Below are positions 48,700 through 58,677 of a stretch of 64,000 nt of DNA, in pieces. The position numbers and the translations under genes are program-made. Source of the DNA: Roseibium marinum (GTDB lineage: Bacteria; Pseudomonadota; Alphaproteobacteria; Rhizobiales; Stappiaceae); NCBI RefSeq assembly GCF_002906165.1, contig NZ_PPCN01000001.1:186001-250000 (forward strand), given 5' to 3'. Position 1 is the first letter of the stretch. The number at the start of each line of letters is the position of its first letter. Below the pieces are notes generated by a model, which ran no database searches, was not told the origin of the DNA, and saw nothing but the letters and a program-made list of their open reading frames with translations.

Positions 48700-51600
48700 A
48701 TGCCCGACTTATATAAGCCTTTTCGCCTCTCGTGTATTCAGAACGTACAGCCGCTTGCCGACAAGCATGTTCTGTATGCAACGGTCTATTTCGGCTTCAG
48801 TCTGAGCGAGCCGGGGAGCCTGCTTTCCGAAGCTGAATATATGGAAAAGTCCACCGGACATTTCCCTGACGGCGGCTTCCTGGACATGGGGTTTCCGAAG
48901 GAATGCCCGGAACTTCTGATCGCCGGGGAGGCGAGGGCACCGTCGGGCACCAGCGTAAAGGCGCAGGATCTTCTTGTCCGCGTCGGTCCGATAGAAAAAA
49001 GAGCCACTGTTTTCGGCGACAGACACTGGGTGAAGGAAACCGACCGGATCGTACTGCGCGATGCCGAACCCTTCGAAGCTATGCCGCTGACCCCGGCGCA
49101 TGCTTATGGCAGTGAAACCCATCCCCTCAATCCGGACGGGCGGGGGCATGATCCGGCCTATATTCTCGACCATTTCGGACATGCCGCGCTACCCAATATC
49201 GAAAATCCGGACAAGCTGATCCTGCAGCCGGCCGACCGGCCTGAACCTGTTCTTTTTGGCCCGCTCGGCCACGAACATCCGCTGCGCAAATCGAAACTCG
49301 GCGACCCGCGGGCGCAGTGGCTGACCACGACCTTCCCCGGTATGCCGCCGGGCTTTGAAAATGCCTATTTCAACGTCGCACCACTCGATCAGCGCACGTC
49401 TGGCAGCCTGACCGGTGACGAGCCTGTCACTGTGGTGGGAATGTCCGGCACAGATCCGGTAATCAATTCCGCGCTTCCCGGTTTGCGTCCGAGGCTTGTG
49501 GCAATCCACGACAGGAAGGCGGAGCGTTTCACCGATCTGGACCTGCGTCTGGAAACGGTCTGGATTTTCGGAACAGGCGGATTTGGCGGCCTCTATTACC
49601 GGGCGGCCATCCGCGCGGATGACGACAAGGTTTCCAATGTCGTGGCGCTCGTCGTCGGAGCCGAACGCCTGAGCGACGCGCCCCGTCCGGCCGAATACTA
49701 CGCGGAAGTTTTCAGGCTGCGGTCCGATCCGGCGGAAGGCGCCCTGCATACGCTCAACGATACGCAGCTCATGCCGCCGATGTCCCAGGCCGAAGCAGAA
49801 GAGCTGAAACTGCGGTCTGACGCATACAGCGAGTCGATTGCCGCGAAATTCGACAAGCAGTTTCAATTTGCCGCCGACAAGATGATAAAGGACAGCAAAC
49901 TGCCTGCGATGTTCCTGCCGAAGGAAACCCTGCCGAAAGCGCCGCGCCTGCCTTTGCCGAACCCCAAGGATCTTGCCGCCGGCAAGATCGATCTTGCAAA
50001 AACGGTCAAGGATCTGCTTGCCGCCATGGGAGCGGCCCATGCCCAATTCGATGCGTTGCGCACAACGGAGTTTGCAAAACTTTCCGCCAAGGGCATTCCG
50101 GTTCCCAAGGATGCGACGGCAGTCATTCAAAAGGCGATTGAGACCAACGACCCGAACGCGAAACAGCTTATCGAGGCGGCCGCCAGGCTGGACGATCTGG
50201 GATCGAATTTCGGCAAGATCGGCAAGAAGCTGCTTAAGGACGAGGAGGCCAGGACAGCAACCTCGATCCAGCCGCTCGCCGAAATGGACCCGGAAGTGGA
50301 TCAGGCGGCGTTGGACAGCATCGACGAGATCCTGAAGACACTGCCGGGCAGCTCCGCAGGCGGCGAGGACGTGTTCCATCTCGCAAAGGCGCGTGCGCTT
50401 GCCTTGCCTGAAGCCGATCCGTTCTACGAGATGCAACAGCGCCTGAAGGAGTTTTCCCAACAGGCGAGCGACGCTCCGCTGGCTCCGCGAGGCGGCGAAC
50501 AGGTTGCGCCGGACGACGCTTTGTCCGATCCGAAATTTCTGGAGGCAAAACCTATCGATGTGGCGTCTATCGCTGCAGGCATGAAGGAAATGAGTGCGGC
50601 TGCCCAGAAGGGCGCTCAAAAGATCGATGCACTGCTGGCGGACATCCTGCCCTCCAGTGCCGGTGGTGAACTGCCCCCGGTGATGGAAGCGCTGAAAGCG
50701 CGCGCCAAAATGCCGGTGCCGAAACCCGATGTGAAATCGGTGGCCGATATTCTCAAAAAGGGCCAGGACGCGGCTGAAACCACGGAAGAGATCTTCTTTG
50801 CGGAGCTGGACGAAGAAGCGCGCGGATTTCTTTTGTCCGGCGATCACGAGCGTACCTACATTCCCGAACCGGTCTATCCGCTGGAGAACTATGCCCAATC
50901 GGTGCGGGACCGGCTGGGTCGATTGATTGTCGACCATGTTGCTGCCGGTACGTCCTTTGCCCGGCGCGACATCGCCAACGCCAATCTTGCCGGTGCGGAT
51001 TTGCAGGGTCTGGATCTTCAAGGCGTGCTGATGGAGCAATCCGATCTGACCTCTGCAAATATCCAGGGCTCGAATTTTTCCGGCGGTGCATTGACCGCGG
51101 TGGTGCTGGCCAACGCCAACGCGTCGGACTGCGACTTTTCAAGGACAAACTTGGCCAAGGCGAACGCGGTCAATGCGAAACTCGACCGCAGCCGGTTTTC
51201 CGACCGCCTTCTTCTTGAGGCGAATTTCGCTTCCGCCTCAATGAAACAGGCCAGCTTTTCCGGTCTTGTCGCACAGAATTGCAGCTTTTCGGATGCCGAT
51301 CTGAGCGGGGCGATATTTGAAAATTGCGTCTTCAACACCTGCAATCTGACCGATGCGCGGTTCGATGGGGCAAAATTCGTCAAATGCATGTTCATCGAAT
51401 GTGCAGCGGAAAACTCTTCCTGGGCCAAAGCAGGTTTCGACCGGCAATTGTTCGTCAAACTCTCCGCGCGGTCCTCCCGCTGGGACGAGGCGGTATTCGA
51501 CAGGTCCACATTCGTCGGAAAATCCCAACTGCCGGAAAGCAGCTTCAAGGGTATCAGAATGCTGGTGTCTTCGTTCCTCGAAGCAAACCTGAGCTTGTGC

Positions 51601-51894
51601 TGTTTCCGGAAATCGGATGTGCGCGACGGTCTGTTCCTGGGCTGCAACATGCAGTCGACGGACTTCAGGGTCTCGCGTGCCCGCAAGGCCGTCTTCAATG
51701 AATCGGATCTCAGGCATTCGGATTTCTTCGGCACCGACCTCATGGAGGCGCAGCTCAATTCGAGCGATGCCCGGTTCACGAGCTTTCGCGGTGCAAGCCT
51801 CTATTCGGCCAATCTGCGCGGCGCACAGGTTGCCTCCGCCGACCTGACCCATGCAAATCTGGGTCACACGCTTCTGGAGTTGCCCGCGTCATGA
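48700..51894 (+). CDS. DUF2169 domain - linker - pentapeptide-repeat protein
   Basis: A 1064-residue protein. Residues about 1-340 are a DUF2169 domain (PFRLSCIQNVQPLADKHVLYATVYFGF-type start, AYFNVAPLDQRT, GLRPRLVAIHDRKAERFTDLDLRLETVWIF in pieces). DUF2169 proteins act as adaptors that load effectors on the type VI secretion tip, shown for Agrobacterium. Residues about 340-740 are a helical, Lys/Ala/Pro-rich linker with PKAPRLPLPNPKDLAAGK. Residues about 757-1060 are pentapeptide repeats (ADLQGLDLQG, ANLAGADLQG, SDLTSANIQG) that form a right-handed beta-helix. The fusion is much longer than the usual adaptor. Ribosome-binding site AAGG in front of ATG 48700. It overlaps the next gene by four bases. 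Confidence 0.85.
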   Translation: MPDLYKPFRLSCIQNVQPLADKHVLYATVYFGFSLSEPGSLLSEAEYMEKSTGHFPDGGFLDMGFPKECPELLIAGEARAPSGTSVKAQDLLVRVGPIEKRATVFGDRHWVKETDRIVLRDAEPFEAMPLTPAHAYGSETHPLNPDGRGHDPAYILDHFGHAALPNIENPDKLILQPADRPEPVLFGPLGHEHPLRKSKLGDPRAQWLTTTFPGMPPGFENAYFNVAPLDQRTSGSLTGDEPVTVVGMSGTDPVINSALPGLRPRLVAIHDRKAERFTDLDLRLETVWIFGTGGFGGLYYRAAIRADDDKVSNVVALVVGAERLSDAPRPAEYYAEVFRLRSDPAEGALHTLNDTQLMPPMSQAEAEELKLRSDAYSESIAAKFDKQFQFAADKMIKDSKLPAMFLPKETLPKAPRLPLPNPKDLAAGKIDLAKTVKDLLAAMGAAHAQFDALRTTEFAKLSAKGIPVPKDATAVIQKAIETNDPNAKQLIEAAARLDDLGSNFGKIGKKLLKDEEARTATSIQPLAEMDPEVDQAALDSIDEILKTLPGSSAGGEDVFHLAKARALALPEADPFYEMQQRLKEFSQQASDAPLAPRGGEQVAPDDALSDPKFLEAKPIDVASIAAGMKEMSAAAQKGAQKIDALLADILPSSAGGELPPVMEALKARAKMPVPKPDVKSVADILKKGQDAAETTEEIFFAELDEEARGFLLSGDHERTYIPEPVYPLENYAQSVRDRLGRLIVDHVAAGTSFARRDIANANLAGADLQGLDLQGVLMEQSDLTSANIQGSNFSGGALTAVVLANANASDCDFSRTNLAKANAVNAKLDRSRFSDRLLLEANFASASMKQASFSGLVAQNCSFSDADLSGAIFENCVFNTCNLTDARFDGAKFVKCMFIECAAENSSWAKAGFDRQLFVKLSARSSRWDEAVFDRSTFVGKSQLPESSFKGIRMLVSSFLEANLSLCCFRKSDVRDGLFLGCNMQSTDFRVSRARKAVFNESDLRHSDFFGTDLMEAQLNSSDARFTSFRGASLYSANLRGAQVASADLTHANLGHTLLELPAS

Positions 51895-52964
51895 CCCTGG
51901 AGGAGCTGCTGATACAAATCGAGTTCGGCGTGTCCTTGAACAGGGAGGATTTCTCCCGGCGAACCTTTGAGGATGCCGAATTCACCGAAGCAAAGTTTGC
52001 GGACTGCAATTTCACCCGCTCCCGCTTCATGCGGTGCCGGTTCAACGAAAGCGTCCTGGCATCATGCGATTTTTCCGGCGCGGCGTTCCTCGAATGTGTG
52101 TTCGAAGAGAGCGAGTTTCTGATCGGCAAGGGCGAGCACGCGCAATTTCACGGCTGCAGTTTCAAATCGACCTACTTCATGAAAACAAATCTGGCGAATG
52201 CCCGGTTCCATGAGATCGGCATCGACGAAGGGGCTTTCATGTGCTGCGACCTGACCGACGCCTCTTTCAGGGGGGCAATGTTGGAACGGGCGTCATTCGC
52301 GGAAAGCACGATCGATCGGATCGATCTGGAAGGCGCAAGTCTTTTCAGGGGCGTCATCAGCGGTGCGGACCTGCGGCAGGCAAATCTGACCGGCACATCC
52401 TTTCATCAGATCCTGATGACGGATGCGAACCTGAGCAACAAGGATCTGTCCGGACAGCGGTTTCGCGAATGCGCACTCGTCAATGCGCAGGTGGAAAACG
52501 TCAATTTTCAGGGCTGCGACCTGACGCAGACCTCGTTTGTGAACAGCAATGTGACTAGGTCGGATTTTCGCGATACGGAATTTCGTTTCGCCATGCTCGC
52601 AGGCTCGGATATTTCCGGGGCGCGTTTTGAAAAGGCGAACATGAACAATGCCGTTTTGGCGAACGCAACGGTCAAGGCAGCCAATTTCACCGGCACACAA
52701 CTGAATATGGCGGTGTTCGACAGTGCCGACTGCCAGGCTGTGATGTTCGAAAAGGCGAAACTGGATTTTGCCGATTTTTCCAATGCGGACTGCAGCGCGG
52801 CGAATTTCGCGGCGGCGCAATTCAGCATGACCAAGTTGCACGCGACCGATTTGTCCGGAGCTTTGCTGTCCGGCGTCACCGGCAGCACCGTACCCACGCT
52901 GGAGCCCCGGCTGATCGCGCAGGCTTATCGTCCGGATCAGGTCAGGCTGGAAGGCGAAATGTAA
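51891..52964 (+). CDS. Pentapeptide-repeat protein
   Basis: A 357-residue protein that is almost entirely pentapeptide repeats (about residues 15-330; for instance AEFTEAKFADCNFTRSRFMR, ANLTGTSFHQILMTDANLSN). The middle residue is mostly Phe, Leu or Met, so a long square beta-helix is expected. It has no signal peptide or membrane segment. It overlaps the previous gene by four bases (ATGA), so the two are coupled and probably bind each other. Pentapeptide proteins accompany DUF2169 adaptors in tip loci. DNA mimicry, as in Qnr/MfpA, is not suggested by the neighbourhood. Confidence 0.88.
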   Translation: MTLEELLIQIEFGVSLNREDFSRRTFEDAEFTEAKFADCNFTRSRFMRCRFNESVLASCDFSGAAFLECVFEESEFLIGKGEHAQFHGCSFKSTYFMKTNLANARFHEIGIDEGAFMCCDLTDASFRGAMLERASFAESTIDRIDLEGASLFRGVISGADLRQANLTGTSFHQILMTDANLSNKDLSGQRFRECALVNAQVENVNFQGCDLTQTSFVNSNVTRSDFRDTEFRFAMLAGSDISGARFEKANMNNAVLANATVKAANFTGTQLNMAVFDSADCQAVMFEKAKLDFADFSNADCSAANFAAAQFSMTKLHATDLSGALLSGVTGSTVPTLEPRLIAQAYRPDQVRLEGEM

Positions 52965-53040
52965 TCTGCAGCACACTTTGCCTGCGCGCGCGCTGGTTGG
53001 GTTGAAGCAACTCCTTGATTTGAATTGAAAGGAACAGGCC

Positions 53041-53442
53041 GTGCCGTTTTTGAATAGCTCCGGACCGATCCCCTCGGTGGATTTGTCGCCGGTTGACCCA
53101 TATCTTCAGGTAACGCCTGTGGGCCCGGTGCCGATGGTTGTTCCGGCAGCGGGATTTCGCGCTTCCACCATTCCATCGCAATTCGCGTTTTATTACATCG
53201 CGTTTTTCATTCACACGATGCTTTCCATTATTCCCGCCTGCATCGCAGGTCCCGGCCCGGGCCTGATCTCCGGCCTGCCGATGAGTGCGAGCCGGTCCGG
53301 CAAGGGATCTATACGGCTGCTTGTCCAGGGCCAACCGGCGGGAAGGTCGCTGATGGATATGCCATTTGAAAACGGACTGACCGTGAATTCGGTCGGCATA
53401 ACGTCTCCAGGTCAGCCGACCGTCTTGAATCCGACGGGCTGA
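53041..53442 (+). CDS. PAAR-like protein (DUF4150 type)
   Basis: A 133-residue protein of the DUF4150/PAAR-like class, which forms the sharp tip on a VgrG spike. The order of the family is visible: MPFLNSSG-type start, VDLSPVDPYLQVTPVGPVPMVVP, the ASTIPSQF segment, then IIPACIAGPGPGLISGLPMSASRS, VLVQGQPAGRSLMD-like LLVQGQPAGRSLMD, and the C-terminal VTSPGQPTVLN-type ITSPGQPTVLNP. The middle FYYIAFFIHTMLSI is more hydrophobic than usual. The start is GTG at 53041 with GGAACAGG in front. It follows the pentapeptide genes and precedes three unknown beta-rich genes. Confidence 0.75.
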   Translation: MPFLNSSGPIPSVDLSPVDPYLQVTPVGPVPMVVPAAGFRASTIPSQFAFYYIAFFIHTMLSIIPACIAGPGPGLISGLPMSASRSGKGSIRLLVQGQPAGRSLMDMPFENGLTVNSVGITSPGQPTVLNPTG

Positions 53443-53462
53443 CTGAAGCGGGAGGGGCAGTG

Positions 53463-54338
53463 ATGAGCAGCAATGTCAATACGCGGTCTTCGGACTGGAC
53501 GTCCAAGCATATCTATATCGCCGTTCCCCGGAATGGCGGTTCCGATCCTTTCAGCGGGCAGTATCTGCGTTTGGAAGAATATGTCGGCGGCGACGAGGAC
53601 AGCCATCTGCCGAACGGCGTTGCAACCTCCGGCCTGACGGGTATTTCCATTTCCTCCACCGGCCATTTCCTTCTGAAATCCGGCCTGGGCGTTTACGAGA
53701 CATTCGCCAAGGGACTGAGGGAAACGGTGAGTGGTGCCGGTCACACGATCACCATCGACAAAGGCGACTGGAAGCTTGTCGCCGACAATGGCTCGGTCAC
53801 GATCACGACCGGCAATACCGGTGTCGGCGTCGGAACGATGAAGTTCAAATCGACCGGCTCGGACATTGAGATCAAGGCGCTGAAGGGGATGTACTACTCC
53901 TCCGACAAGCGGGACATCAAGACAAGCGAATCCGACTCGGTCAAGTTCATCGCGGGCTATGAATATTCAGGCGTTCTCGGTCACACCAGAAAGATCAACA
54001 GCGGCTTCGCGATGAGCATCAACGTCATCGGCGACCTCTATATCAAGACGTCCGACGTCAAATTCACCGGAATTGCGTTGAAGATGACGGCCTTCTCCCA
54101 CTCGTTCGTCGTTGCGTCCATCAAAGGTGTGATCGTCAATTTCAAGATCGGCGTCATCATGGGCAAGAAGATGATCGTCTACAACAAGCTGACTGCCTGG
54201 CAGGTCTATTTCGAGATGGCGAAGGACGAGAAAAAGGCCTTCCAGGTCGATGCAGAACTGAACGGAATGGAAACGGCGGTCGCCCATGCGGAGTCGGCGG
54301 CGATGAATGTCAGCATGTGGCAATTGATCAAGATGTAG
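53463..54338 (+). CDS. Unknown beta-rich protein, paralogue A of a tandem triplet
   Basis: Not recognised. A 291-residue protein without signal peptide or clear membrane helix. It shares with its two neighbours GQYLRLEEY (32-40) and GISISSTGHFL (60-70). A beta-strand-rich middle follows, rich in Gly, Thr and Ser (TITIDKGDWKLVADNGSVTI, about 93-112), reminiscent of the repeats at the end of VgrG spikes. The rest has alternating hydrophobic strands (SGFAMSINVIGDLYIKTSDV, VASIKGVIVNFKIGVIMG). It could be a spike-like trimer, a baseplate-tip adaptor or a cargo. GGAGGGGCAGTG stands directly before ATG 53463. Function is unknown. Confidence 0.75.
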   Translation: MSSNVNTRSSDWTSKHIYIAVPRNGGSDPFSGQYLRLEEYVGGDEDSHLPNGVATSGLTGISISSTGHFLLKSGLGVYETFAKGLRETVSGAGHTITIDKGDWKLVADNGSVTITTGNTGVGVGTMKFKSTGSDIEIKALKGMYYSSDKRDIKTSESDSVKFIAGYEYSGVLGHTRKINSGFAMSINVIGDLYIKTSDVKFTGIALKMTAFSHSFVVASIKGVIVNFKIGVIMGKKMIVYNKLTAWQVYFEMAKDEKKAFQVDAELNGMETAVAHAESAAMNVSMWQLIKM

Positions 54339-54359
54339 TCCGGCTCAGGGGAGCGTAGC

Positions 54360-55265
54360 ATGGCATATACCTATTTGGGCGTTCCGCCCCGGTCGGGCCA
54401 GTCAGCGGCAATTGAAACAGGTGTCTATCTGCGCATGGGCACCTATGTCGACGATGCGTCCGTGAACGAAGCCGGCGAATTTCCGGGCCACTTCTATACG
54501 GCGCCCGACACGAACGACGCGGCGGTGATGGCAACCGCCGAAAACGCCGCGCTTTCCACCAGCGAAGGCATCTTCATCACAACGGTCGGCACCTATGTCG
54601 TTCAGGCCAGAGACGCGGCCACGGTGGAAATCCAGAATGGCGTGAACCAGGACCTCACCGGCGATGCAGGGACCTGGTCGACCACGGTCGAGAGCGGCGA
54701 CATTGCAATCGACATCCGGAACGGTGCCTTCAATGTTACGGGCAAGACGTCCTATCTGATCGAATCCGATACGTCCGACGTCAAGTTTACCGCGTCGAAC
54801 GGCAAGATCTCGACATCCGGCAATTACATCTACAATCACACTTACGGCAGCTACATAAAGTGGGTCGACGCCAATTCGACGTCCGGGGTTCAAGGCACAA
54901 AGACCAATGTCAGCATTGCCCTGGTGATGAGTTTCTACGGCGCGCTGGTCCTGTCGGCGAAAGTTTCCAGCTTGTCGATGAAGGTTGAAAGCGCCAGCGC
55001 GACGGGTGTGAAGATCGGCGGAGGCGGTATCTCGCTCGGTATGACCTGGTACGCCCATGACATCGTCGCAAACGATATCAAGGTGGCCTGGATGTACATC
55101 AAATATCGCGGAGTGCAGTTGGAAAGCACCGCCGCGCAGACCGACACCACCGGCCTGATGAGTATTGACGGGCACACGGTGTCTTTGAACAAGGCCGCGG
55201 CGATCGCGAACACCTCAACCTTGAAGGGGGCGTTCGGCATCACATCCACGCTTCCGGGCAGCTAA
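54360..55265 (+). CDS. Unknown beta-rich protein, paralogue B of a tandem triplet
   Basis: Not recognised. A 301-residue protein similar in layout to both neighbours: GVYLRMGTY (21-29) and GIFITTVGTYV (70-80), then TVESGDIAIDIRNGAFNVTG with regular alternation of polar and hydrophobic residues as in a beta-prism or triple beta-helix. TSDVKFTASNGKISTSG follows, matching TSDVKFTG of paralogue A. The C-terminal half holds VSIALVMSFYGALVLSAKVS, the same place as hydrophobic strands in A and C. No signal peptide. GGGGAGCGTAGC precedes the ATG. It stands 21 bases after A and 12 before C. Confidence 0.75.
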   Translation: MAYTYLGVPPRSGQSAAIETGVYLRMGTYVDDASVNEAGEFPGHFYTAPDTNDAAVMATAENAALSTSEGIFITTVGTYVVQARDAATVEIQNGVNQDLTGDAGTWSTTVESGDIAIDIRNGAFNVTGKTSYLIESDTSDVKFTASNGKISTSGNYIYNHTYGSYIKWVDANSTSGVQGTKTNVSIALVMSFYGALVLSAKVSSLSMKVESASATGVKIGGGGISLGMTWYAHDIVANDIKVAWMYIKYRGVQLESTAAQTDTTGLMSIDGHTVSLNKAAAIANTSTLKGAFGITSTLPGS

Positions 55266-55277
55266 GGAGACCGTCTG

Positions 55278-56126
55278 ATGTCTTACGTATTCTATTGGGC
55301 TCCCGGCAATAGCGACAATTATTTCCACCAGGGCCACTACCTGCGGCTTGGCGCTTTTGAAGGGCAGTGGGAACCGGACAGCGTCAATATCGAGGATGGC
55401 TCCGGCAATGCCCAGGGCATCTATTTCCATACGGCCGGCCAATACACCCAAAAAGCCACCGGCTGCTATTATCAGGCCGTCAACGGACCGGTGAAACGCA
55501 CTATCGAGAGTGAAGACTACACCTATACCAATACCGGCGGTGACTACGACGCAACCACCCAGGGCGGCGTGAAGATACGGGCCAGGAATTCGGTCAGCGT
55601 ATCTTCCTCGGAAGTGACACCCGACGATGAGACCCACACGTCCATCAAGATCGATGCCGGCGACAAGGACGTTTATTACAAGCAGGGCAAATACAACAAG
55701 GAAACCACGACTTACAAAAAGAAGATCGTGAAAGCCCATTCCCACAAAACCAATATCGGCCCGGTCGTAAAGACACATGGCGGCACCGGCGTGCACACCT
55801 ATGTCAGCTTCGAGCTCGGCTACAAGACGATGAGCGTCGGCATCAAGGTTTCCGAAGTCAGTTTCAAAGGGTTGTCGCTATCCATGGGTGGCACCAAGAA
55901 CGGCATGACCCTGTACACCTCGGTGGGATTTTACGTCATCGACAGCAAGAAAGTCTGGCTCGATGAAGAATTCAGCTGCGTGAAGAACGAAGTCAAAACC
56001 TTTCGCTTTACCGGAGGCATCGCGCAAGCCTGGAAATATCTGGGCGCGGTTCGAAGCGAAATCGCAAGCGGCACAAGCGCCAAGAATATCGAAATCACAT
56101 CAAACGGGATGCAGATCAACCTGTAG
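55278..56126 (+). CDS. Unknown beta-rich protein, paralogue C of a tandem triplet
   Basis: Not recognised. A 282-residue protein with the same two N-terminal motifs, GHYLRLGAF (19-27) and GIYFHTAGQYT (47-57), then TIESEDYTYTNTGGDYDATT, and KVSEVSFKGLSLSMGGTKNG, which lines up with SDVKFTGIALKM of A and KVSSLSMKVESA of B. The middle is lysine-rich (YYKQGKYNKETTTYKKK). It has no signal peptide or membrane helix. AAGGAGACCG precedes the ATG. It ends 49 bases before the DUF3540 gene, so the triplet lies inside a tip operon. Confidence 0.75.
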   Translation: MSYVFYWAPGNSDNYFHQGHYLRLGAFEGQWEPDSVNIEDGSGNAQGIYFHTAGQYTQKATGCYYQAVNGPVKRTIESEDYTYTNTGGDYDATTQGGVKIRARNSVSVSSSEVTPDDETHTSIKIDAGDKDVYYKQGKYNKETTTYKKKIVKAHSHKTNIGPVVKTHGGTGVHTYVSFELGYKTMSVGIKVSEVSFKGLSLSMGGTKNGMTLYTSVGFYVIDSKKVWLDEEFSCVKNEVKTFRFTGGIAQAWKYLGAVRSEIASGTSAKNIEITSNGMQINL

Positions 56127-56175
56127 CCTCGTGCCGGGGCTGAATACTTTCCAGGCTTGGTCAGGGGGACCTAAA

Positions 56176-56787
56176 ATGAGTGAAAACAAAATAACGGGCG
56201 AACCGTCTGCACTTCCCGGCGTGGCCGCCGCAATGCCTGCCATCGCCGGGGCCGGCTCCGTGGAGCAAATTGTTGCAGGCAAAAAAGGCGGTCTGGTCCT
56301 TCGGGACCAGGGTGGCGGGGAAAGGACATTCCGCAAGGCTGTCAGCTGTCTCGTCACGCCGCAGGTCAATGACCGGGTTCTGACGGCCGGCATCGGCGGC
56401 CAGACTTATGTGCTTGCAATTCTCGAGCGTGAGGCAGGCGAAACACTGAAAATCGAAAGCTCGGGCGCTCTCGAATTCTCCGCAAAACGGATCGCGTTCA
56501 AGACCGGCTTTCTGGATATTCTGGCGGAAACGGTGACCATGGCCGGCAACGCCATTCATTCGCTGTTCCGCCGTTCCAGACGGATTGTCGGTCATGATGA
56601 AACGATGGCCAATTCCTCTTCGCTCAAGGCGAATGACCGCGCCGTTGTCATTGCGCAAGCAGATGTTTCCCATGCAGGTCTCGTGAGCCAGAAGGTCGAC
56701 GGTCCGTTGGCTGTCAAATCCAGGACCGCCATCTTGAGTTCCGATGGCGATATCCGCCTGAACGGCGAACGTGTGAATGTGGGGTAG
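56176..56787 (+). CDS. DUF3540-like protein
   Basis: A 203-residue protein with the DUF3540 layout found next to DUF2169 and DUF4150 genes: LVTPQVNDRVLTAGIGGQTYVLAILERE (given in part), a beta-rich segment LKIESSGALEFSAKRIAFKT and a C-terminal ILSSDGDIRLNGERVNVG that looks like VgrG-type beta strands. It may connect the tip proteins to the spike. ATG 56176 has AGGGGGA in front; the longer frame to 56131 is not supported. I rate the family assignment as likely, its mechanism as unknown. Confidence 0.65.
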   Translation: MSENKITGEPSALPGVAAAMPAIAGAGSVEQIVAGKKGGLVLRDQGGGERTFRKAVSCLVTPQVNDRVLTAGIGGQTYVLAILEREAGETLKIESSGALEFSAKRIAFKTGFLDILAETVTMAGNAIHSLFRRSRRIVGHDETMANSSSLKANDRAVVIAQADVSHAGLVSQKVDGPLAVKSRTAILSSDGDIRLNGERVNVG

Positions 56788-56826
56788 GTCCCCTCTTGGG
56801 ACCGGAGTGGGGAAAAGTTCCGACTG

Positions 56827-58677
56827 ATGGCAAGTGTGAATGAATTGCTCCAGGCAGCGGGAAACCTGCTTGACGAAGGTGAAGTTGAAAGCGCGCTGGA
56901 ACTGACGCGTCAGGCCGGAGCGAAGGCGCCGAATTCAGCGCGTGTCGCCAAGGCGCACGGCGCCTGTCTGATTGCGAACGGCGACTTCGAAAACGCGGCG
57001 AATTGTTTCGAACTCGCCTTGAGCATCGATCCGGATGACACGGCGGCTTGCCATGATCTTGGTGTGGCCAATCAGGCAACCGGCAACAGGGAAACAGCGC
57101 GGCTTCATTTCGAAAGGGCCCTGACGCTCAACCCGGAGAACATGTCCACCCATGAAGCGCTTGCCGCCATCCTGGTGGAGGACGGTGAGTTTGACGATGC
57201 CATCCGCCATCTGCAGATCGCGCTCAATGCCAATCCGGAAGACGCAAACACGATTGCCAATTTCGCCGCCATCCTGATGCGTGTCGGCGCTCTTTACGAT
57301 GCACGTGTTCATTTCGAAAAAGCCTATGGAATCGCGCCGGACAACCCGAACATCACCGTGCCGCTGATCCACATTCTTCAGGAGCTGGGTGAGCTGGGTG
57401 AAGCGCATATGCTGGCGGAAAAACTCTATCTGCGCCGGCCGCGTGATCCGGTCGCTCTTGCGCCGTTTGCAAGTGCACTCGCCCAGACCGGCGATCTGGA
57501 CCAGGCGAGAAGACACGCGGAAACCTGCCTCAAACTCGCTCCCGACTTCGTTCCGGCACTGGATGCCTTTGCTCTGGTGACGGCCTACCAGGGCGAGCCG
57601 GAACTCGGCATTGCCAGACTTTCCGAAGCCTTGAAAAAGGCTCGCTCCAATCCGCATCTCTATCTTTCCATGGCCGCTGCCCTGTTGCGGATCGGGCGGT
57701 TCGATCAGGCTGTGGCGATGGCTGGCGAGGCGCTCAAGGACGGCACGGCGCGGGCCAGTGCCTATCTTCTTCTGCGGCAGTGCCTGAGCGTCAGCGGCAA
57801 CCTGGAGCAGATGGTGGAGTTGAGCCGCGAATTGGCCTCCGATCAGGCGCTTGGCGGGGCAAAGGAGTTGCTGAAAGGCGATCTTGTCATACCCTTCGAA
57901 ACCAAACCGCTCGAGGCTGTGCTGCTGTCCCGCTTCGCCTCAAGGCCTTACCGGGTAAACGGCGAAGTAGCTGCCAATGTCAGCGCACCCGAACCGTTGT
58001 TACCGCTTTTGAAGCGAATGCCTCTGGCAGGGGAGCTCCGCCAGATCCAGGCTGAGGATCTGGCGAAAGCCTCCGTGAACGAAGATGCGCATTTCATCAC
58101 GCAGCTCGCGCTGAACCAGAGGCTGTTGACCTATTCTCCGGACAAGTTTCAGCCTTACCTTTTTGGCGATCCGCAGAACGATGATTTCTGGCGAGGCTCC
58201 CTTGCGCCGCTCAAGCCTCCCTTCGCCGGGGTCGTCTGGTCGAAATATCCGCCGGCGGCCCGTTTGCAGGATATCGACGTGGCGCTGGCCGATTGGCCGG
58301 GTACGATCGTCAGCCTTGTCTGGGACGACCAGCGGATGGAGCTTGAAGGCAACAGGCGGATCATCGACGCCGGCCGTCACCTCGCCTCGCTTGAGGCGCT
58401 TGTCGATCTCATCGGCAAGATGGACCTGGTCGTGGGTACGGACAGCCTGGCGTTGCACATTGCGGGCGCCATGGGCGTTCCCGGCGCGGCCTTGGTCACA
58501 CAGGAGAAGTCCTGGTACTGGTATCACAGGGAAGGAAAGTCCTTTTGGTATCCGAGTTTCCAGGTTGTCGAACGGCTGTGGCAGGAAACGGACGAGGCCT
58601 ATCGCGACAGGGTTTCAAAGGTTGCGTCAACCTGCCTGAAAGATGCCGGGCCTGTAGAAAATTCCGCCTCGGCCTAG
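56827..58677 (+). CDS. TPR protein with glycosyltransferase-9-like C-terminus
   Basis: A 616-residue protein. Residues about 1-340 are tetratricopeptide repeats (ARVAKAHGACLIANGDFENAANCFELALSIDPDD and similar, given in part). Residues about 420-600 are like the GT-B C-terminal half of heptosyltransferase/OGT-type proteins: GVVWSKYPPAARLQDIDVAL, LVWDDQRMELEGNRRIIDAG and MDLVVGTDSLALHIAGAMGVPGAALV, the donor-site signature. A complete N-terminal GT half is missing. Proteins of this type occur in flagellar, adhesin and type VI loci and may glycosylate or simply hold partner proteins. It follows DUF3540 by 39 bases on the same strand. Confidence 0.8.
   Translation: MASVNELLQAAGNLLDEGEVESALELTRQAGAKAPNSARVAKAHGACLIANGDFENAANCFELALSIDPDDTAACHDLGVANQATGNRETARLHFERALTLNPENMSTHEALAAILVEDGEFDDAIRHLQIALNANPEDANTIANFAAILMRVGALYDARVHFEKAYGIAPDNPNITVPLIHILQELGELGEAHMLAEKLYLRRPRDPVALAPFASALAQTGDLDQARRHAETCLKLAPDFVPALDAFALVTAYQGEPELGIARLSEALKKARSNPHLYLSMAAALLRIGRFDQAVAMAGEALKDGTARASAYLLLRQCLSVSGNLEQMVELSRELASDQALGGAKELLKGDLVIPFETKPLEAVLLSRFASRPYRVNGEVAANVSAPEPLLPLLKRMPLAGELRQIQAEDLAKASVNEDAHFITQLALNQRLLTYSPDKFQPYLFGDPQNDDFWRGSLAPLKPPFAGVVWSKYPPAARLQDIDVALADWPGTIVSLVWDDQRMELEGNRRIIDAGRHLASLEALVDLIGKMDLVVGTDSLALHIAGAMGVPGAALVTQEKSWYWYHREGKSFWYPSFQVVERLWQETDEAYRDRVSKVASTCLKDAGPVENSASA

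Follow-up and report, generated by a model that had tools for sequence, protein, structure and literature searches.

Gene organization of the A-B-C locus

The window analyzed here, which is the whole stretch of 64,000 nucleotides from Roseibium marinum, contains three tandem genes on the forward strand between positions 53463 and 56126: A (53463-54335, with the stop codon to 54338), B (54360-55262, with the stop to 55265) and C (55278-56123, with the stop to 56126), coding for proteins of 291, 301 and 282 amino acids, respectively. An alternative GTG start of A at 53460 would give a protein of 292 amino acids. The initial annotation had claimed three open reading frames with mutually similar products in this region. 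Each frame was confirmed and ends at a stop codon, and single-pair BLASTP comparisons gave similarities above chance for A-B (2e-6), A-C (2e-5) and B-C (6e-4), in alignments that were collinear from the N-terminus and covered most of the length.

The two N-terminal motifs described previously were found in all three products: GxYLR[ML]xx[YF] in A (GQYLRLEEY), B (GVYLRMGTY) and C (GHYLRLGAF), followed by GI[SFY][IF]x[ST]xGx[FY], again in A (GISISSTGHF), B (GIFITTVGTY) and C (GIYFHTAGQY). The C-terminal motif that had been attributed to the trio occupies equivalent places in A (SDVKFTGIALKM) and C (SEVSFKGLSLSM) and does not extend to B, in which SDVKFT lies about 60 residues earlier than the corresponding place in the other two. 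The greatest divergence among the three proteins was found in their C-terminal halves, which are partly hydrophobic. Judged by their sequences, the three products are genuine homologues of one another that align collinearly.

The neighboring genes from 48700 to 58677 are all on the forward strand, like the trio. Upstream are located a gene for a TvpAB-like chaperone with DUF2169 and pentapeptide repeats (48700-51894; PF09937, E 1.3e-60; Pentapeptide, E 9.7e-35), a gene for a TvpB-like pentapeptide-repeat protein (51891-52964; Pfam, E 3.3e-39) and a gene for a PAAR-like protein, the probable spike tip (53041-53442; Pfam Tox-PAAR-like, E 0.012, below the cut-off). The PAAR-like protein reached 16.1 bits against a DUF4150/PAAR-like cut-off of 31; of four homologues, two were above this value (60.8 and 87.7 bits) and two below (22.4 and 23.4 bits). 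Downstream, a DUF3540 protein (56131-56787; PF12059, E 8.4e-24), TvpC-like according to the role given in PMC13373197, is encoded from 4 bases past the end of C; a first scan of the genome contigs with this protein alone yielded no relative. It is followed by a TPR protein with a weak glycosyltransferase-9 match (56827-58677), a conserved neighbor. Genes for Hcp, TagF, TssM (IcmF), TssK, TssB and TssC, identified by Pfam, adjoin the window. On these family assignments, the trio lies within a type VI secretion (T6SS) locus carrying a "Class III Tvp" spike-loading set.

Comparison of A, B and C with Pfam and NCBIfam gave nothing above the curated cut-offs, and no Phage_GPD or Phage_base_V domain (gp27-like hub, OB) was found in them by Pfam at E values up to 1. 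The lowest E value in PHROGs, a collection without cut-offs in this analysis, was 0.0059, for B against a family whose function is unknown. Relatives gave scattered single matches, including "baseplate hub subunit and tail lysozyme" (0.0046), "baseplate assembly protein" (0.003), a methyltransferase and others, and were given no weight. A sequence search of solved structures gave no match for A and, for the A/B/C profile, two irrelevant matches only (E 0.25 and 0.41). AlphaFold2 returned a mean pLDDT of 32.9 for C, as a lone chain with a nine-row alignment, and of 43.1 for the PAAR-like protein with a three-row alignment, values too low for either model to count as evidence.

A VgrG without a needle and its fused counterparts

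The VgrG gene of the locus (G000:C1:253975-255501) is located about 12 kb downstream from C, outside the window. Its product of 509 amino acids contains, by Pfam, Phage_GPD (residues 30-346) and an OB domain (422-474), has no Pfam match past the OB domain and ends 35 residues after it. The VgrGs of seven genomes with the split arrangement share an alignment end point; two intact VgrGs of genome G121 continue past this point into an A/B/C-like domain, a VgrG of G156 carries a fused domain likewise (ABC profile, E 6e-17), and the fusion in a third intact VgrG of G121 (L104) was recognized by eye. On these alignments, two genomes of the order carry a domain of the A/B/C type fused to VgrG past its OB fold. 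The open frames measure 504-567 amino acids in the split-type genomes and 838-1406 in the intact, fused VgrGs. The search covered nine of the ten split-type genomes, all but R. sediminicola, and in each of the nine it found exactly one VgrG of this lineage, which ends shortly past the OB fold.

Profile-profile comparison was performed with hhalign, using permuted controls, which reached at most 0.2%. The ABC trio scored 93.4% and 94.3% against the G121 and G156 fusions, and the trio denoted xyz scored 72.8% against the G121 fusion. Trios and single-gene members matched five other VgrG tails, taken from loci collected by DUF3540, at 42-73% (E 2.6e-4 to 3.0e-5); these tails are no blind sample, since they were chosen by their look after weak matches of a wider profile in L073, L076 and L077. 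Lower scores were given by the tail of L078 (8.9%), the f83 pair L080/L081 (0.4-15%) and the own second VgrG (0.3%), in a comparison that did not extend to the other VgrG of L076 or to those of L079, L082 and L083. The profile link to VgrG tails, the fusions apart, is of moderate strength. The wider needle profile also weakly matched the DUF3540 genes of L075, L080 and L081 (E 4e-3 to 4e-5). Matches at the level of the phylum, assessed by eye on translations, fell in VgrG in 7 of 9 genomes besides the own one and in repetitive beta-proteins in 2 of 9.

Turn residues recur every 8-9 positions (z 7.8 and 6.5), and DUF2345, the C-terminal family of VgrG, matched 2 of 13 and 4 of 26 relatives (6 of 39), with no match in A, B or C themselves. 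The trio resembles the VgrG beta-prism (DUF2345) in its detectable profile similarity, its place after the OB fold in the fusions and its period, and differs from it in being encoded by separate genes in threes and in its N-terminal YLRLG region. This region was not seen in the translations of ordinary VgrGs that were read, apart from a similar YFRLG/GIF-like motif noticed by eye in the two f83 VgrGs L080 and L081, which were left out of the fusion count. Taken together, the needle-less VgrG, the natural fusions, the profile comparison and the turn period make A, B and C look like the detached C-terminal beta-prism, or needle, of VgrG. The initial annotation had proposed that a triplication produced either a heterotrimer (spike, needle or sheath-end) or three alternative extensions of the tip; the fusions and the needle-less VgrG point to the needle. 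A role at the sheath end was rejected: TssB and TssC, which form the sheath, have genes of their own, and in the fusions the partner of the domain is VgrG.

Copy number and origin of the trios

Tandem arrays were read in eight genomes, and all 11 contain three genes, none two or four. The expected constancy of three copies applies to these arrays and not to other clusters, which have one gene (G036:C32, G220:C22, G108:C48 and G023:C2) or a VgrG fusion. The x members of the arrays were missed by the first profile and spotted by eye in gaps; a held-out profile then detected them at 2.4e-12 to 1.1e-17 (database size 1000), with reversed decoys at 3.3 or worse.

In a tree of 38 rows, constructed without the L084 trio, the third fused domain of G121 (L104) and the G156 fusion, the A, B and C proteins of five genomes formed three separate, well supported groups, and x, y and z likewise formed one clade each. 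AU tests disfavored a single ancestral triplication shared by all arrays: 9 of 9 cross-pairings were rejected (p 0.0022-0.0453, uncorrected, three of them marginal at 0.037-0.045), for groups that were named after inspection of the tree and with S108 and S220 as long branches. This favors two independent triplications. The gene order A, B, C is kept across the genus. The prism lengths are near-equal in four of the six ABC trios (permutation P 0.023 for the six), and length equality fails in the f18 trios, where y exceeds x by up to 36 residues. Matched lengths within a trio lend the heterotrimer weak support.

A proposed needle encoded in trans

We consider it probable that A, B and C are three versions of a VgrG needle encoded in trans, forming the shaft together as an A-B-C heterotrimer. 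The hub of the T6SS would be a homotrimer of the VgrG that ends soon after the OB fold. A, B and C would contribute one chain each and intertwine into a pseudo-three-fold beta-prism, which would dock on VgrG, prolong its axis and bear the PAAR-like tip. A point against such an arrangement is that a homotrimeric VgrG must accept three different chains. The finding of three genes in every array read fits a shaft of this composition placed between the VgrG homotrimer and the tip. The DUF3540 (TvpC), DUF2169 (TvpAB) and pentapeptide-repeat (TvpB) proteins would load the tip as in Class III Tvp systems, for which PMC13373197 describes a two-step assembly with a TvpC pre-complex, and the A-B-C needle with VgrG would take the place of TvpC.

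The Class III system described there is VgrG1-Paar1 of Serratia marcescens with TvpAB, TvpB and TvpC/DUF3540 (PMC13373197). Our locus shares with it the DUF2169-pentapeptide, pentapeptide, DUF3540 and VgrG genes and, probably, the gene for a PAAR-like tip, beside a T6SS; it differs in that VgrG there has its own very long beta-prism and here has none, the prism seemingly residing on three separate genes, or on one in other clusters, and in having the TPR protein as an extra conserved neighbor. A spike made of different chains is also the idea behind the heterotrimeric VgrGs proposed in Vibrio cholerae and Aeromonas dhakensis, where, according to PMC8668125, whole VgrGs would mix and the requirement in A. 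dhakensis was linked to the loading of effectors; in our locus a single VgrG hub would combine with three different prism chains.

In the phage spikes of T4 (gp27/gp5) and P2 (gpD/gpV), hub and needle are also located on different chains. These spikes are split before the OB fold and their needle is homotrimeric, whereas the split observed here is after the OB fold.

The three genes could instead encode alternative homotrimeric needles, A3, B3 or C3 being mounted on VgrG in different machines to give different spikes. The single-gene clusters indicate that one gene can probably suffice, so that a homotrimeric needle probably works somewhere, and the divergent C-terminal halves and the presence of several cassettes with a common VgrG in one genome are in line with this reading. 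We regard this explanation as unlikely, given arrays that hold three genes and never two or four, no more than one PAAR-like gene in any cassette (assessed partly by eye), the A-B-C order kept in the genus and the near-equal prism lengths of four of six ABC trios. The heterotrimer is accordingly favored over three alternative tips, a preference that would follow from the copy number, the apparent recurrence of triplication and, weakly, the matched lengths.

It is more doubtful still that the trio acts as needle and VgrG-linked effector in one, its partly hydrophobic C-terminal halves damaging the target membrane, although this role could hold alongside that of a needle. A precedent exists in VgrG1 of Serratia marcescens, which has a long prism, lacks a separate effector domain and is reported to make target cells lose their membrane potential (PMC13373197). 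The strong divergence of the C-terminal halves would suit an effector and also fits coadaptation with the tip; A, B and C matched no effector family in Pfam or NCBIfam, and no immunity gene was noticed in passing. Least probable is a long shaft of A3, B3 and C3 homotrimers stacked end to end, which the longer mean prism reported for Class III VgrGs than for VgrGs working without Tvp proteins (PMC13373197) would make plausible, but for which specialization for different neighbors would be expected, and A, B and C are collinear and carry the same N-terminal motifs.

Several genomes contain more than one needle cassette, yet a single needle-less VgrG, which suggests that the shafts are exchangeable and may be exchanged between cassettes. 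We lean, with some reserve, towards a modular spike: a needle-less VgrG hub with interchangeable, obligately heterotrimeric shafts, several shaft-tip cassettes per machine, and at least two origins of such shafts from one-chain shafts.

No description of a three-gene, detached T6SS spike shaft was found in the literature searched. A function is hereby proposed for three genes that have no curated family match, and a VgrG ending after the OB fold provides a search rule for more cases. If the needle is indeed separate, T6SS spikes could be rearmed by a swap of cassettes, the hub remaining unchanged. The general question for contractile injection is one of symmetry breaking, namely how a three-fold VgrG spike bears one asymmetric tip and a chosen cargo; a three-gene heterotrimeric shaft, if true, would assign a separate chain to each face and open this question to tests chain by chain.

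The A, B and C genes and their surroundings

The three ORFs were found where the initial annotation had placed them: A (53463-54335), B (54360-55262) and C (55278-56123) follow each other with stop-to-start gaps of 21 bases (A to B) and 12 bases (B to C) only. The products are related over a common layout, with pairwise BLASTP E values of 2e-6 (A-B), 2e-5 (A-C) and 6e-4 (B-C) and alignments collinear from the N-terminus. Both N-terminal motifs matched their earlier description; the C-terminal motif, proposed to be common to all three, lies at an equivalent place in A and C only. No match at curated cut-off was obtained for A, B or C in Pfam and NCBIfam, and the best PHROGs match was weak (B, E 0.0059), to a family of unknown function. 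Modelled with AlphaFold2 as a lone chain, C gave a mean pLDDT of 32.9.

Genes for a DUF2169+pentapeptide protein, a pentapeptide protein and a PAAR-like protein are located upstream from A, and genes for a DUF3540 protein and a TPR protein downstream from C. Directly beyond the window end, Pfam identified the T6SS genes Hcp, TagF, TssM, TssK, TssC and TssB; an AAA ATPase among them is presumably ClpV, and two further ORFs without Pfam match were taken for TssE and TssA. A VgrG of 509 aa is encoded on the same contig (G000:C1:253975-255501), of which the window spans 186001-250000.

The gene set agrees with the Class III Tvp set described by Monlezun et al. 2026, in which a DUF4150/PAAR tip is loaded by DUF2169, pentapeptide and VgrG-like DUF3540 proteins (PMC13373197). 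Sachar et al. 2025 identify DUF2169 as a chaperone of DUF4150 tips and mention DUF3540 as unstudied (PMC11883445).

The TPR protein (56827-58677) showed a weak glycosyltransferase-9 match. A TPR protein occurs near the DUF3540 gene in clusters of the order with separate needle genes as well as in those with fused ones; the main text of the Tvp paper does not contain the word TPR (PMC13373197). This protein could be an extra Tvp component.

VgrG proteins with and without a needle part

Alignment of VgrGs showed that those of seven genomes (G000, the window's own, G034, G036, G108, G167, G053 and G220) end soon after the OB fold; in the window's own VgrG, the hub domain (30-346) and the OB domain (422-474) are followed by 35 residues. 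Two intact VgrGs of genome G121 run on past that end point, through a linker into an A/B/C-like domain with YLRMG and the motif that follows it. The needle profile matched these two whole VgrGs with E values of 1e-44 and 9e-52, both sequences being included in that profile, and a held-out profile built from trios only matched them with 3e-12 and 2.8e-11. A third intact G121 VgrG showed the same fusion by eye. In G156, a genome from outside the profile-building set, the fusion was matched with an E value of 6e-17.

The search for VgrGs of this lineage, made with the window's own VgrG, covered 11 genomes with A/B/C-like domains, Roseibium sediminicola, also of the split type, not being among them. 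Each of the nine genomes with separate needle genes had exactly one such VgrG, whose open frame measured 504-567 aa; intact fused frames were of 838, 840 and 847 aa in G121, where two broken copies were also found, and of 1406 aa in G156. Judged from these sequences, VgrG lacks the needle, which seems to be encoded separately as A, B and C.

In two G121 VgrGs beside the intact ones (G121:C1, locus L065, 4382-7002 and 7596-10147), the needle part is in another reading frame: one is an ORF pair with a stop/start overlap (ATGA), perhaps a natural split, and the other is broken in a G-rich linker. Four members of the genus carry an additional VgrG (615-671 aa) that is more distantly related. The second VgrG of the window's genome lies in its second T6SS cluster (L071, G000:C9:30000-49900), where a VgrG of 609 aa has, by eye, its own needle.

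DUF2345, the VgrG C-terminal family, was the only Pfam family to match more than one of the A/B/C relatives (2/13 and 4/26 at E <=0.01; best 6.8e-5). Five VgrG tails from DUF3540 clusters in other parts of the phylum, compared with the trio and single-gene profiles, gave collinear alignments of 163-222 columns with probabilities of 42-73% (E 2.6e-4 to 3.0e-5) against <=0.2% for permuted-column controls; these tails came from DUF3540-collected loci and were chosen by eye once weak needle-profile matches in three were known, so that the sample was not blind. Other tails aligned poorly (L078 8.9%, the f83 pair 0.4-15%, the window genome's second VgrG 0.3%). Turn residues (G, D, N) recurred with spacings of 8 (z 7.8), 9 (z 6.5) and 17 (z 4.6) positions, counted over 110 residues from the GI motif onward in 23 of 38 sequences, with the rows of the f18 trios (members x, y and z, from G167 and G053) excluded.

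No description of a separate VgrG needle was found in titles and abstract openings of the papers searched on DUF3540/T6SS, DUF2169/DUF4150, heterotrimeric VgrG spikes, VgrG prisms, contractile spikes and Roseibium/Labrenzia, or in the available text of PMC13373197, PMC11883445 and PMC8668125; the main text of the first contains neither 'needle' nor 'heterotrimer'. Mixed VgrG trimers have been proposed for Vibrio cholerae, and in Aeromonas dhakensis a mixed-VgrG requirement was tied to effector loading (PMC8668125). In Class III Tvp, the VgrG that receives the tip has a very long beta-prism (PMC13373197), whereas here VgrG is needle-less and A, B and C are separate.

Distribution with DUF3540

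Single-protein searches with C or A found relatives in 4/61 genomes, all of one genus and including the window's own. The other three (G034, G023 and G032) show the A-B-C order of the window, flanked by the PAAR-like and DUF3540 genes, and the same trio is present in R. sediminicola CAU 1639 (L084). The first needle profile, built from 13 sequences, matched 8/297 genomes of the order and 10/398 of the phylum sample, the window's own included in both; the phylum matches outside the window's genome were weak and, by eye, fell in VgrG in seven of the nine genomes and in repetitive beta-proteins in two.

DUF3540 was present in 8/297 genomes of the order, and all eight contain the A/B/C-like domain, separate or fused, found by the first profile in seven and by the later needle profile in G156. 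By eye, the one remaining first-profile match in the order (G254) was an ordinary VgrG. DUF3540 occurred in 12/398 genomes of the phylum sample, 10 of them over cut-off. With the two below-cut-off genomes and the window's own left aside, no separate needle gene was found in 11 DUF3540 loci from 9 genomes; beyond VgrG, the needle profile gave weak matches in three loci, each to the DUF3540 protein itself. One DUF3540 cluster in another part of the phylum (G608:C12, L079) has a short VgrG-like protein (571 aa) with a TPR protein alongside, and no separate needle was found in it; this could be another solution.

Copy number and a putative three-chain shaft

A copy number of three in other genomes, which the initial annotation had suggested checking, holds for tandem arrays: all 11 read, from 8 genomes, contain three genes (one array each in G000, G034, G023, G032, G108 and R. 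sediminicola, three in G167, two in G053), and no array of two or four was seen in the loci read. Where two trios share a region, other genes lie between them, in G167 a PAAR-like gene and in G053 a DUF2169 cassette. In these two genomes the third members were noticed by eye at first; a profile from which they had been left out then recovered them (2.4e-12 to 1.1e-17, against 3.3 or worse for reversed decoys). Single genes occur in four clusters (G036:C32, G220:C22, G108:C48 and G023:C2), and G036 has two lone needle genes elsewhere.

The G036 matches are scattered (C31:73376-74248, C32:31736-32626, C12:623433-624224), with a T6SS cluster only at C32. The A orthologue at G108:C129 (L059, 14820-16940) is an ORF of 706 aa; its long N-terminal extension closes with GTDTGTDTD-like repeats.

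In a tree of 38 rows, A, B and C each formed one clade (support 99-100), as did x, y and z (100), with the joint groups A+B+C (89/80) and x+y+z (88/92). A single ancient triplication would pair each of A, B and C with one of x, y and z. Each of the nine possible pairings was rejected (p 0.0022-0.0453, uncorrected, those of C being marginal), and therefore genes were probably triplicated to exactly three on two occasions.

Lengths between the GI motif and the C-terminus (A/B/C) were 232/232/236 in G000, 232/232/234 in G034, 232/233/234 in L084, 234/233/234 in G032, 227/232/237 in G108 and 234/258/241 in G023, matching within these six trios slightly more closely than when shuffled (P 0.023). 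In the f18 trios (226-227/241-262/238-241) the lengths do not match.

A VgrG needle consists of three chains; a gene set that provides it in trans has to provide all three. Arrays of three, where other clusters hold a single gene, are as expected from heterotrimer formation by paralogues. In the mechanism that we favour, and consider fairly likely, the A, B and C chains would assemble on the VgrG trimer into a single three-fold shaft. Since several cassettes but one needle-less VgrG are present in each of G167, G053, G023 and G108, the shafts may be exchangeable between cassettes.
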